Shown: one piece after another, positions 4,767-8,378 of the stretch | Layout of the letters: every line of letters begins with the position of its first letter | Position numbering within the stretch: position 1 is the first letter of the stretch | DNA from: Schleiferiaceae bacterium | GTDB taxonomy: Bacteria; Bacteroidota; Bacteroidia; Flavobacteriales; Schleiferiaceae | Direction of reading: 5' to 3' | Length of the DNA stretch: 38,606 bases | Assembly: GCA_030833905.1 (NCBI GenBank) | Contig: JAURGG010000008.1 | Span: forward strand, 1-38,606 | Position numbers and translations under genes: made by a program | Notes under the pieces: model-generated | Seen by the model: only the letters and a program-made list of their open reading frames with translations | Told to the model about the DNA's origin: nothing | The model's database searches: none

Positions 4767-5506
4767 GGCTTCTTATTCTATTTGCGTTAGCAGCCTTTAG
4801 CTTACAGGCTCAGCCCTGGGAGAAGCCTAGCCCCTCAGAGGGACTGGTCGTGTGGCGCAACACTGCACCCGTATTCGATGCCGCTGAAGAGGCACGCCTT
4901 GAGGCCGTGCTTCAAGCAATTAACGACTCGACATCTACCCAAATAGCAGTCTTATTTGTCGACCGCGTCAACGACGACCTCAACTTTGTCGCGGCCCAAA
5001 CCGGCGAAACTTGGGGCATCGGCCAAGCCGAAACAGACAACGGAATGCTGGTGCTCATAGCCCTCGAAGATCGAAAAATGGCGATCCAAGTCGGCCGCGG
5101 CCTTGAGGCCACGGTCACCGACCTCGAGAGCCACCTACTCATCGAAAACGTGCTAAAGCCCGCATTTCGAGAGCAGGCCTATGCTGCCGGAATTGAAGCC
5201 GTAGCCACCCAGGTGGCGCAAATGCTGTCCGGTCAGTTTGTCGCGGTCGAATCCACCAAAGAGCGCAAGTTCCCGTTTGGTTTGATTGCCATAGGTATTC
5301 TCCTACTCATCGCACTGTCCAAGCGCGGCGGTGGCGGAGGCAGTGGCCACCGAGGAATGTGGTACGGCCCGATGGGCGGCTACCCAGTCGGTGGCGGTTT
5401 TGGTAGCCGCGGCGGCGGGTTTGGCGGCGGCGGGTTTGGCGGCGGCGGATTTGGTGGCTTTGGCGGCGGAAGTTTCGGCGGCGGCGGAGCCAGCGGTTCG
5501 TGGTAA
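4763..5506 (+). CDS. Exported TPM-domain protein with glycine-rich tail
   Basis: 247 residues. A signal peptide (MRLLILFALAAFSLQAQ) is followed by a periplasmic TPM domain (about residues 25-160, including TQIAVLFVDRV and GMLVLIALEDRKMAIQVGRG). A single membrane segment lies near residues 170-185 (FGLIAIGILLLIALS), followed by a long Gly/Phe/Ser tail made of GGGF units. The arrangement signal, TPM, membrane span and glycine-rich tail is standard for this family. It is the last gene of the overlapping M23-MerR-LemA-TPM run. A lumenal TPM domain and a cytoplasmic low-complexity tail is the expected topology. Confidence 0.9.
   Translation: MRLLILFALAAFSLQAQPWEKPSPSEGLVVWRNTAPVFDAAEEARLEAVLQAINDSTSTQIAVLFVDRVNDDLNFVAAQTGETWGIGQAETDNGMLVLIALEDRKMAIQVGRGLEATVTDLESHLLIENVLKPAFREQAYAAGIEAVATQVAQMLSGQFVAVESTKERKFPFGLIAIGILLLIALSKRGGGGGSGHRGMWYGPMGGYPVGGGFGSRGGGFGGGGFGGGGFGGFGGGSFGGGGASGSW
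5386..5500 (+). repeat. Coding repeat: glycine-rich GGGF units
   Basis: Tandem copies of a GGC/GGG/TTT triplet pattern encode GGGF and GGFGGG units at the end of the exported TPM protein. The DNA copies are nearly identical around 5415-5460 (unit TTTGGCGGCGGCGGG), so the tract is a candidate for slipped-strand length change. Confidence 0.7.
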
Positions 5507-6335: not shown

Positions 6336-7205
6336 ATGAAAAAAGCCTACGTTTTCCCGGGCCAAGGGGCCCAAGCTCCCGGAATGGGACAGGATTTGTT
6401 TGAAGCGCACCGCGCCATGTTTGAGCAGGCCGATGCAGTTCTTGGGTTCGGTTTAACCGAACTAATGTTCAACGGCACGATGGAGGACCTCACGCAAACG
6501 AAAGTGACGCAGCCGGCCATTTTTGTGCACAGCGTCATCAAGGCCGCCTCCCTCGGATCCGAGTTTCAACCCGACATGGTAGCCGGCCATTCCCTCGGCG
6601 AGTTTTCAGCACTTGTAGCCGCCGGAGCCCTCAAGTTCGAGGACGGTCTTCGCCTCGTAGCCGAGCGCGCCCTCGCCATGCAGGATGCCTGCGATGCCGA
6701 GCCCTCGACGATGGCCGCCATTCTCGGTCTGAGCGACGAGCAGGTAGAGCAGATTTGTGCCGCAACTCCGGGCGTGGTGGTTCCCGCCAACTACAATTCT
6801 CCAGGCCAATTGGTGATTAGTGGCGCGCGCGCCGCGGTCGAAGCCGCGTGCGCTGCCTGCAGCGCGGCCGGCGCCAAGCGGGCACTGATCCTGCCGGTCG
6901 GAGGCGCATTCCACAGCCCGCTCATGGAGCCGGCCCGCGCGCGCCTCGCAGAGGCGCTTGATTCCGTATCGATTCAAGCCCCGCGCTGCCCCATCTACCA
7001 AAACGTAGTGGCCGCCCCCGTCAGTGACCCCGAAGCCATCCGAGCCAACCTCAAGGCCCAACTCACCGGATCGGTCCGCTGGACCCAGTCGGTCCTCGCA
7101 ATGGTCCACGACGGCGCCACCAACTTCTATGAAGTTGGACCCGGTAAGGCCCTACAGGGCATGATTAAGAAAATTGCTCCCGAAGTCGAAGCCATCAGCG
7201 CATAA
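6336..7205 (+). CDS. fabD: Malonyl-CoA:acyl carrier protein transacylase
   Basis: Transfers malonyl groups from CoA to acyl carrier protein for fatty-acid synthesis in the cytoplasm. The protein is 289 residues from the ATG at 6336, chosen because MKKAYVFPGQGAQ is the canonical N-terminus; the open frame extends 10 codons further upstream without homology. The nucleophile motif GHSLGE (Ser about 86) and the active-site His in GAFHSPLM (about 193) are present, and the length is normal. It stands alone without other fab genes and is followed by the repeat-rich leader of mvaD. Confidence 0.96.
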   Translation: MKKAYVFPGQGAQAPGMGQDLFEAHRAMFEQADAVLGFGLTELMFNGTMEDLTQTKVTQPAIFVHSVIKAASLGSEFQPDMVAGHSLGEFSALVAAGALKFEDGLRLVAERALAMQDACDAEPSTMAAILGLSDEQVEQICAATPGVVVPANYNSPGQLVISGARAAVEAACAACSAAGAKRALILPVGGAFHSPLMEPARARLAEALDSVSIQAPRCPIYQNVVAAPVSDPEAIRANLKAQLTGSVRWTQSVLAMVHDGATNFYEVGPGKALQGMIKKIAPEVEAISA

Positions 7206-7221
7206 ACCTGGTCGCTGGCTA

Positions 7222-7320
7222 ATGGCTCCTCGTAAAAAGCCAACAGCCAACAAGCCAACAGCTAACGAGCCAACAGCCAACAAGCCAACAGCTAACGAGC
7301 CAATCTCAGCCAACAGCTAA
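7222..7320 (+). CDS. Possible 32-residue repeat peptide (PTANK/PTANE)
   Basis: Sixteen bases after the fabD stop, an ATG opens a 32-codon frame that reads through the tandem repeat. After MAPRKK it encodes alternating pentapeptides PTANK and PTANE (two of each), then PISANS and a stop at 7318-7320. The 15-base repeat period keeps the frame open, and the stop comes where the repeat changes to a 25-base unit. It has no homologue I know and could be a chance product of a repeat whose length is a multiple of three. It could equally be a leader peptide ahead of mvaD. Confidence 0.22.
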   Translation: MAPRKKPTANKPTANEPTANKPTANEPISANS

Positions 7321-7364
7321 AGAGCCAATCTCAGCCAACAGCAAACAGCCAACAAGCCAACACG
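7238..7364 (+). repeat. Tandem AGCCAACA-type repeat in the fabD-mvaD gap
   Basis: A 30-base unit occurs twice without mismatch (7238-7267, 7268-7297), each made of two similar 15-base halves. It is followed by a 25-base unit (7298-7322) repeated nearly exactly (7323-7346) and a last partial copy reaching the mvaD start codon. The motif AGCCAA recurs throughout. Because copies abut directly with no unique spacers, this is not a CRISPR array. The rest of the gap (7206-7237) includes GGCTAATGGCT at 7217-7227, a degenerate inverted copy. Confidence 0.85.
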
Positions 7365-8378
7365 ATGAAGTCTTCATTCCGCGCCCCGTCCAACATCGCC
7401 CTCGTGAAGTACTGGGGCAAGTACGGCGTGCAGTTGCCGAGTAACCCATCGATTAGCTTCACATTGGATGCTTGTGCGACAGAGACCACGCTTGAATTGA
7501 CAGATGCTCCTGGAATCACCGTGGCGCTTGACGGGGTGGATACGCCGAGTTTCGTTCCGAAGGTGGCCCAGTTTGTGGACCGAATTGCTGCACGGCACCC
7601 TTGGGTAACGGACTACGGGTTCCGGGTGCAGACCCACAACACGTTTCCGCATTCCTCTGGGATTGCCAGTAGCGCGTCTGGAATGAGTGCCCTCGCGCTG
7701 TGTATTGTGGACCTTGCGCAAAAGCTGGGGCATGAAGTGGCTAACCCGATGCAAGAGGCCTCTGTGCTTGCCCGCTTGGGTTCTGGCAGCGCGTGCCGTT
7801 CAGTCTACGGTGGACTTGTGGTTTGGGGCGAAACAGCTTCGGTCGAAGGTTCGTCTCAGGATTTCGGGGTGGCCTACCCTGACTCGGTGCACGAAGTGTT
7901 CCGCAGCTATTGTGATACAGTCGCGCTCGTAGACGTTGGCCAAAAGGCGGTAAGTAGTACGGCGGGGCACCAGTTGATGGAGGCGCATCCGTTCCGAGAC
8001 CAGCGCTTTGCGCAGGCACATGACCACTTAGCTGCGCTAAAGCCAATTTTGGCTGCAGGTGACCTCGAAGCATTCATCGAATTGGTTGAGCTCGAGGCCC
8101 TTACCCTGCACGGATTGATGATGTCGAGCAGTCCAAGCTACATTTTGATGCGGCCAAATACCCTGCGCATTATTGAGGCCATCCGAGGATTCCGCCGAGA
8201 TTCTGGGGTACCCGTCAGCTTTACGCTCGACGCGGGTGCCAATGTGCACATCCTTTACCCTGCGGCCTTCGAACAAAAGGCGCTTCAGTTTGTTGAAGAT
8301 GACGTGAAACCTTGGTGTAAAGACGGTCGCGTGATTGTGGACCGCGTAGGCCAAGGACCGGTATCTTTGCAGCAATGA
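7365..8378 (+). CDS. mvaD: Diphosphomevalonate decarboxylase
   Basis: Converts mevalonate diphosphate to isopentenyl diphosphate with ATP, the last step of the mevalonate pathway. It has 337 residues and a GHMP-kinase fold. The N-terminus (APSNIALVKYWGKYG) is diagnostic. The phosphate-binding region reads FPHSSGIASSASG, followed by GSGSACRSVYGG and the late segment FTLDAGANVHIL that carries the catalytic Asp. The ATG at 7365 follows the repeat leader directly; no canonical start exists further upstream in frame. The end overlaps the mevalonate kinase gene by four bases (ATGA), so both products are probably made from one message. Confidence 0.95.
   Translation: MKSSFRAPSNIALVKYWGKYGVQLPSNPSISFTLDACATETTLELTDAPGITVALDGVDTPSFVPKVAQFVDRIAARHPWVTDYGFRVQTHNTFPHSSGIASSASGMSALALCIVDLAQKLGHEVANPMQEASVLARLGSGSACRSVYGGLVVWGETASVEGSSQDFGVAYPDSVHEVFRSYCDTVALVDVGQKAVSSTAGHQLMEAHPFRDQRFAQAHDHLAALKPILAAGDLEAFIELVELEALTLHGLMMSSSPSYILMRPNTLRIIEAIRGFRRDSGVPVSFTLDAGANVHILYPAAFEQKALQFVEDDVKPWCKDGRVIVDRVGQGPVSLQQ
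8362..8369 (+). promoter_or_regulatory. Perfect -7 box (TATCTTTG) inside mvaD, before the kinase gene
   Basis: TAnnTTTG match lying within the last codons of mvaD and ending five bases before the next ATG at 8375. If used, it would give a leaderless internal transcript for the mevalonate kinase and the gene after it. Confidence 0.4.

Follow-up and report, generated by a model that had tools for sequence, protein, structure and literature searches.

Heptamer repeats dispersed over the genome are found in unrelated bacteria. According to the available part of Rehm et al. 2015 (PMC4692102), the GGGAATC / GGGGA(C/T)T heptamers of Xanthomonas and Nostoc form heterogeneous, dispersed and mostly intergenic arrays, which lie near gene ends and in some cases over stop codons, under-use divergent gaps, and are mostly shared by site between two related species while varying in length and sequence. 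TAACTGA repeats are reported from marine Beggiatoaceae, cyanobacteria and five Bacteroidetes in the accessible portion of MacGregor 2015 (PMC4679880), where they are intergenic and sporadic across distant lineages and, in the main Beggiatoaceae genome, mostly forward and just before starts; TAACTAG served there as a scrambled control that had no direct repeats in the genome studied. TAACTGA repeats are also mentioned in the available text of a Thiomargarita paper (PMC4853749). For long simple sequence repeats with units of 5–11 bases, Mrazek et al. 2007, as cited in the accessible parts of PMC4679880 and PMC4692102, found heptanucleotides over-represented and proposed slippage. Both of these later reports, in the portions available, leave the function and spread of heptamer repeats open.

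The repeats described here work like the GGGAATC and TAACTGA families, with different units. They occur in two flavours, AGYWACN and GCCAAC. As in the described families, a tandem unit of about 7 bases is found at many sites of one genome, and both flavours lie mostly in intergenic gaps and at gene ends, with a preference for convergent gaps and avoidance of divergent ones; the unit sequence is identical to that of neither family. The dispersed, mostly intergenic and heterogeneous arrays, the gene-end placement and the recurrence at the same sites in related species with changed length and sequence are shared with the GGGAATC family, as far as the available text of PMC4692102 describes it. In contrast to that description, the unit here has no G-runs and hence no quadruplex logic, and a single clade carries two flavours, of which the more restricted mixes 7–9 base units and comes with composite spacers of 200–460 bp. 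With TAACTGA, as presented in the accessible part of PMC4679880, the family shares an intergenic and sporadic occurrence and a 7-base tandem unit close to TAACTAG (AGTAACT in another phase), whereas the AGYWACN arrays are located mostly at stops rather than just before starts. Unlike the repeats of Mrazek et al. 2007, as those are summarized in the available text, the units here are degenerate and the sites share one motif genome-wide. In the literature searched, with subscription papers mostly outside its scope and other papers available in part, we recognized no account of an AGYWACN/GCCAAC family; tandem strings of this kind came up in Borrelia plasmid and leprosy assay studies, neither of which, in the text available, concerns such families.

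The window is a 38,606-nt stretch from the genome of a Schleiferiaceae bacterium (contig JAURGG010000008.1), referred to as G000; each genome compared represents one species, and G001 and G019 are sister species. The genes in the neighborhood were assigned by Pfam as 6-pyruvoyl tetrahydropterin synthase-like, acyltransferase, mvaD, GHMP kinase-like and UbiA-type. Between the stop codon of the fabD-like gene at 7205 and the ATG of mvaD at 7365 there is a gap of 159 bp, which is rich in A and C (61 A, 55 C, 28 G, 15 T) and holds the tandem array (Table 1). An exact duplication of a 30-base unit and a nearly exact duplication of a 25-base unit, running up to mvaD, had been predicted from the sequence, and both were confirmed; the register of the 25-mers was chosen in the present analysis, and the array stops 2 nt short of the ATG. 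The array is a nested 7/8-base repeat of AGCCAAC and AGCTAAC units with one extra base at approximately every second unit, and the motif AGC[ACT]AA occurs 16 times in the gap with a spacing of 7, 8, 7, 8, 7, 8, 7, 8, 10, 7, 8, 10, 7, 7 and 8. The longest exact repeat in the gap is 36 nt, compared with a maximum of 14 nt in 1000 dinucleotide shuffles, in which the motif count reached 7 at most. Ahead of the array, the gap carries GGCTAATGGCT-like units that resemble inverted AGCCA units (by eye only), followed by CGTAAAAA; an A-run ahead of GCCAAC is also present at some other sites of this flavour. A tRNA search of the window found none. In the TRF analysis of the window, the array has the top score (135). 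The highest score outside it (86) belongs to a 15-base repeat, GCGGCGGCGGGTTTG, present in 3.3 copies at 5409–5458 within a reading frame.

Table 1. Features at the fabD–mvaD junction (window coordinates).
Feature	Position	Strand	Basis
FabD-like acyltransferase, PF00698	6336..7205	+	Pfam E 1.6e-39; start from custom gene caller (6306 in the ORF list)
Spacer start, non-array	7206..7237	.	First 32 bases of the gap; sequence read directly
Tandem array AGCCAAC / AGCTAAC	7238..7362	+	TRF, spacing, shuffles, GCCAAC matches elsewhere in the genome
30-base unit, copy 1	7238..7267	+	Identity to copy 2
30-base unit, copy 2	7268..7297	+	Identity to copy 1
25-base unit, copy 1, with AGCCAATCTC	7298..7322	+	Similar block in the G001 spacer (by eye)
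25-base unit, copy 2	7323..7347	+	3 mismatches to copy 1
mvaD, diphosphomevalonate decarboxylase-like	7365..8378	+	PF22700 E 6.4e-38, PF18376

MvaD is present in 19 of the 22 genomes of the genus. In 12 of these species mvaD starts −4 to +2 nt from the stop of the acyltransferase gene, and in the remaining seven the two genes are separated by a spacer (G000, 159 bp; G019, 138 bp; G001, 259 bp; G020, 130 bp; and, shorter, G017, 58 bp; G002, 41 bp; G007, 40 bp). The seven form one clade with a support of 100/100 in a tree of the acyltransferase and MvaD proteins of the 19 species, for which the simplest reading is one gain followed by growth in the inner species. The spacers of G000 and G001 are of the GCCAAC flavour; by eye, the latter consists of approximately four copies of a unit of about 32 bases and has blocks like GAGCYAATCTCAGCCAA in common with G000. 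Those of G019 and G020 are filled, also by eye, with AGYAACN heptamers such as AGCAACT and AGTAACG. The resemblance of the G007 spacer to the repeats is only loose, so that repeats are no more than a candidate for what first opened the spacer.

The spacers diverge strongly, with an identity of 32–43% among sisters compared with 92–96% for the flanking genes. For G000 against G019 and G001, respectively, identity amounts to 92% and 94% over the final 300 bases of the upstream gene, to 96% and 95% over the first 300 bases of mvaD, and to 43% and 35% over the alignment columns of the spacers (50% and 66% over ungapped columns), with shuffled-spacer baselines of 28% and 24%. The G019 and G020 spacers (59%) are closer to each other than those of G019 and G000, although the genes are less alike. 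The original prediction of a variable regulatory leader was therefore right as to the variation between species (40–259 bp), and its regulatory part found no support.

A second junction behaves in the same manner. It lies between genes that we take, from their sequences, to be mfd and an ABC-transporter ATPase gene, and was located by protein lookup in 21 species. Arrays are present in six (G000, G001, G019, G017, G020 and G002), all of which fall in the mvaD-spacer clade, where G007 has no array; elsewhere the two genes overlap at ATGA in seven species and are 4–98 bp apart and array-free in eight. Like mvaD, this is a tight operon junction that was probably opened by repeats.

The window array is of the GCCAAC flavour, the typical form of which is GAGCCAAC-CTYGCCAAC with a mixture of 7-, 8- and 9-base units. 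Three consecutive GCCAACN{0,4} units were matched 30 times in G000, 11 times in G019 and 55 times in G001 and were absent from the other 19 of the 22 genus genomes, with the reversed control giving one match each in G005 and G007 and none in the rest. Thus, the uniqueness originally claimed for the array holds within the window but not genome-wide, and the dispersed intergenic repeat family offered as one option turned out to be right. A strict pattern, AGCYAACAGCYAAC, had matches in 5 of 60 genomes and made the array seem nearly unique, which was misleading because the pattern was too narrow; AGCYAACN8AGCYAAC with one mismatch gave mostly noise outside G000, with similar counts in the control.

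The AGYWACN flavour is more widely distributed. AGYHACNx3 is matched 34 times in G000 and 3–45 times in eight more genus genomes, is absent from the remaining 13 (reversed control over all 22: two in G020, one in G011, none in the other 20), and is found in 14 of 80 relatives and in 22 of 296 genomes of a wider sample of the order. G037 and G052, of another family and genus of the order (labels f2 and g17), have 221 and 40 matches, and their arrays, among the matches listed, are largely long AGTAACC or AGTTACG runs, which suggests an independent expansion in that family. In the genus labelled g21, the arrays among the matches listed are mostly homogeneous AGCAACT, compared with degenerate ones in the present genus. 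From its narrower distribution we infer that the GCCAAC flavour is the newer one.

To describe where the older flavour is placed, we analyzed 128 AGYWACN sites in nine genomes (nine of the 137 located, six in G001 and three in G005, were left out). Genes were called with our own simple codon-based caller trained on the present clade, and gap classes of G012 were excluded because the caller gives long gaps there. At 62 of the 128 sites, the closest gene boundary is a stop codon that lies within the array, and at 22 more it is a stop no further than 10 nt away (84/128 together). Array-touching junctions are convergent in 55 cases, co-directional in 50 and divergent in 3, compared with 28, 224 and 47 for array-free junctions from the same loci and six mvaD neighborhoods (L134–L139), corresponding to a convergent enrichment with p 4e-18 and a divergent depletion with p 2e-4. 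As most of these loci had been selected through the motif, we also scanned 480 kb of whole contig stretches of G020 and G002. The 21 sites found there are 8 convergent, 7 co-directional, 1 divergent and 5 inside genes; half of those in intergenic gaps (8 of 16) are thus convergent, compared with 50 of the 387 junctions in the background (286 co-directional, 51 divergent; p 6e-4). At a score of ≥14, at which our AGYWACN weight matrix misses the window array as one of the other flavour, the scan gave 36 strand-hits in the 480 kb and 3 in the reversed sequence, and in 320 kb of the array-free G012 none, with 2 in the reversed sequence. Arrays near stops are sense in 54 cases and antisense in 33, showing no clear strand rule. 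Using blastn on both flanks, 78 of the 128 sites could be linked into 28 groups, a persistence that is biased because each member had to match the motif, that includes groups chaining neighboring sites, and that perhaps exceeds what pure neutrality would predict.

Taken together, the tract upstream of mvaD is probably one local representative of a satellite-like family of short repeats, here of the GCCAAC flavour with 7–9-base units, that changes rapidly and has become dispersed over the intergenic gaps of a few closely related Flavobacteriales. The spacer would have been opened once, with AGYWACN coming first, and the array may then have grown by replication slippage and unequal exchange; growth by slippage, as originally suggested, fits the nested periods of 7/8, 15, 30 and 25 bases. 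The arrays would persist because promoter-less gene-edge spacers tolerate them. For mvaD, the likely outcome is that the ancestral overlap between its start and the fabD stop was lost and that the operon gained a longer leader of indifferent sequence rather than a dedicated switch. Slippage alone does not account for the presence of a single degenerate sequence at many sites in place of random local heptamers, which requires some dispersal or strong selection. Nor does it predict the polarity of the GCCAAC arrays.

This polarity was examined in the 40 GCCAAC arrays of G000, G001 and G019, ten of which were unscorable because they lie at a contig edge or inside a gene. Of the 30 others, 26 are nearer the gene on their 3′ side, and the median distance over all 30 is 11 nt on the 3′ side and 245 nt on the 5′ side. 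Among the 26, 19 meet an opposite-strand stop codon and 7 a same-strand gene start. The window array is counted among the four exceptions (33 nt on the 5′ side, 50 nt on the 3′ side) as a result of its automatic extension ending prematurely, and by eye it follows the polarity; at least one more of the four, L401, seems to reflect a start codon that the caller placed too far downstream. L383, in a stretch of 1150 bp that is probably uncalled coding sequence, and L388, which has no usable geometry, were left out of the inspection by eye. Six intergenic loci could be compared in contig stretches selected irrespective of arrays. By eye, AGYWACN units are present in the outgroup at four of them (mvaD, L377, L396 and L401) and absent at two (L376/L403 and L395), which suggests that the newer flavour settles at sites of the older one. 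A rather unlikely but conceivable reading of these observations is a system resembling satellite DNA, in which one repeat flavour after another is laid down at the edges of gene spacers, always in the same orientation and with the GCCAAC strand directed into the adjacent gene, and replaces the older flavour in place. If true, such targeted and directional copying of a 7–9 base unit would call for a novel enzymatic mechanism beyond simple slippage. Given that the genus has species with none, one and two flavours, together with matched junctions with and without arrays, the origin, polarity and turnover of the repeats are open to comparative study.

In addition to simple arrays, we found composite spacers of 200–460 bp, which raise the question of whether the arrays are the inverted edges of a MITE-like intergenic element of that size, with the mvaD copy as a remnant. 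Several gaps measure 85–376 bp in G000, G001 and G019 (204–376 bp for those considered in this respect) compared with 5–112 bp in G020 or G002, and five of these gaps have, by eye, GTTGGC/GTTAGC-type units at one edge and oppositely oriented GCCAAC units at the other. Spacer interiors are also shared between unlinked gaps of one genome, with 53 pairwise matches, the longest of which are 70–84% identical over 86–284 nt. However, at the thresholds used, these matches involve only 18 of 61 large gaps (120–900 bp). The interiors contain a core, TTCGGTTATAACCGGATTTTACTTTTT, of 21–28 nt that is nearly constant, while its surroundings differ by 16–30% where longer stretches align; it was noted at L394, L395, L309, L313, L407, L408 and L406 in G001, L125 and L127 in G000, and L226 and L369 in G019. 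A 21-base part of the core with ≤2 mismatches occurs 31 times in G000, 38 in G001 and 13 in G019, once or twice in G002, G008, G017 and G020, and not in the rest of the 60 genomes. The window spacer consists of an array without this core, which, with the limited sharing of interiors, leads us to regard a mobile element as unlikely. In silico folding of the core gives a small stem-loop with a U-rich stretch behind it (−6.8 kcal/mol), similar to a terminator. Among 24 sites surveyed in the three sisters, a sample of all matches, 11 of the 18 with both neighbors called are convergent. At L385, L395, L402 and L406, a GC-rich module like GCCGCGCAGCGGCCCTAGCGCGCAGCGC lies directly ahead of the A-run and the GCCAAC array.

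The position of the array, which ends just before the mvaD ATG, and the A/C-rich gap could also indicate translational or RNA-level control, with the leader serving to attract ribosomes or an RNA-binding protein, a role put forward for the TAACTGA repeats of Beggiatoaceae in the available part of MacGregor 2015 (PMC4679880). The seven GCCAAC arrays that meet a start codon are compatible with such a role, whereas the 19 facing opposite-strand stops and the AGYWACN arrays, most of which overlap or adjoin a stop, speak against it. Sisters with 92–96% identity in the flanking genes do not share a conserved array sequence, sense-strand folding of the mvaD leader is unremarkable (z −1.2; antisense −2.5), and Rfam at gathering score gave no matches in the window or in 15 loci with arrays or the TTCGGTTATAACCGGATTTTACTTTTT core. 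The regulatory leader or protein-binding array of the original prediction thus gained no support, given that the same repeats occupy numerous other junctions, chiefly 3′ ends, and we consider control of this kind quite improbable. None of the results marks out a mevalonate-specific control switch, and a repeat-filled leader before a metabolic gene need not be one.

Still more doubtful is a gene-end cassette under selection, providing either stops in all frames (TAACTAG with its 7-base period) or clean termination between converging genes. The enrichment in convergent gaps and the many genes with their stop codon in an array agree with this proposal, and in the 480-kb sample all-frame stops are reached within 113 nt at 13 of 19 array-bearing ends but are lacking within about 150 nt at over half of the 369 other ends. 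All-frame stops are, however, a trivial outcome for a unit that contains TAG and has a period of 7. Furthermore, ordinary hairpin terminators adjoin some arrays rather than being replaced by them (L122, L255 and L288; by eye), and the window array contains TAA but not TAG and leaves the mvaD frame open for 23 codons upstream of the ATG.

An assembly or sequencing artefact, suggested by the draft state of the genome (193 contigs) and several arrays near contig ends, is hardly credible because different public assemblies have arrays at the same junctions, including arrays of their own between fabD and mvaD in relatives.

Loss of the hairpin nuclease SbcCD was considered as a clade-specific cause of the repeats and found no support: SbcD was above the curated cut-off in none of the 22 genus genomes and in 8 of 14 control genomes. 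Matches below the cut-off, which cover approximately the first 90 of 252 positions, were obtained in 6 of 13 array-free and 0 of 9 array genomes. The lack of SbcD might ease the retention of palindromic spacers.

Finally, 11 of the 128 AGYWACN sites are located within a gene at a depth of more than 60 nt. A 7-base period in a reading frame gives a 7-residue protein repeat, and at L123, L265, L295, L299 and L266 the heptamer runs within reading frames look like low-complexity linkers.
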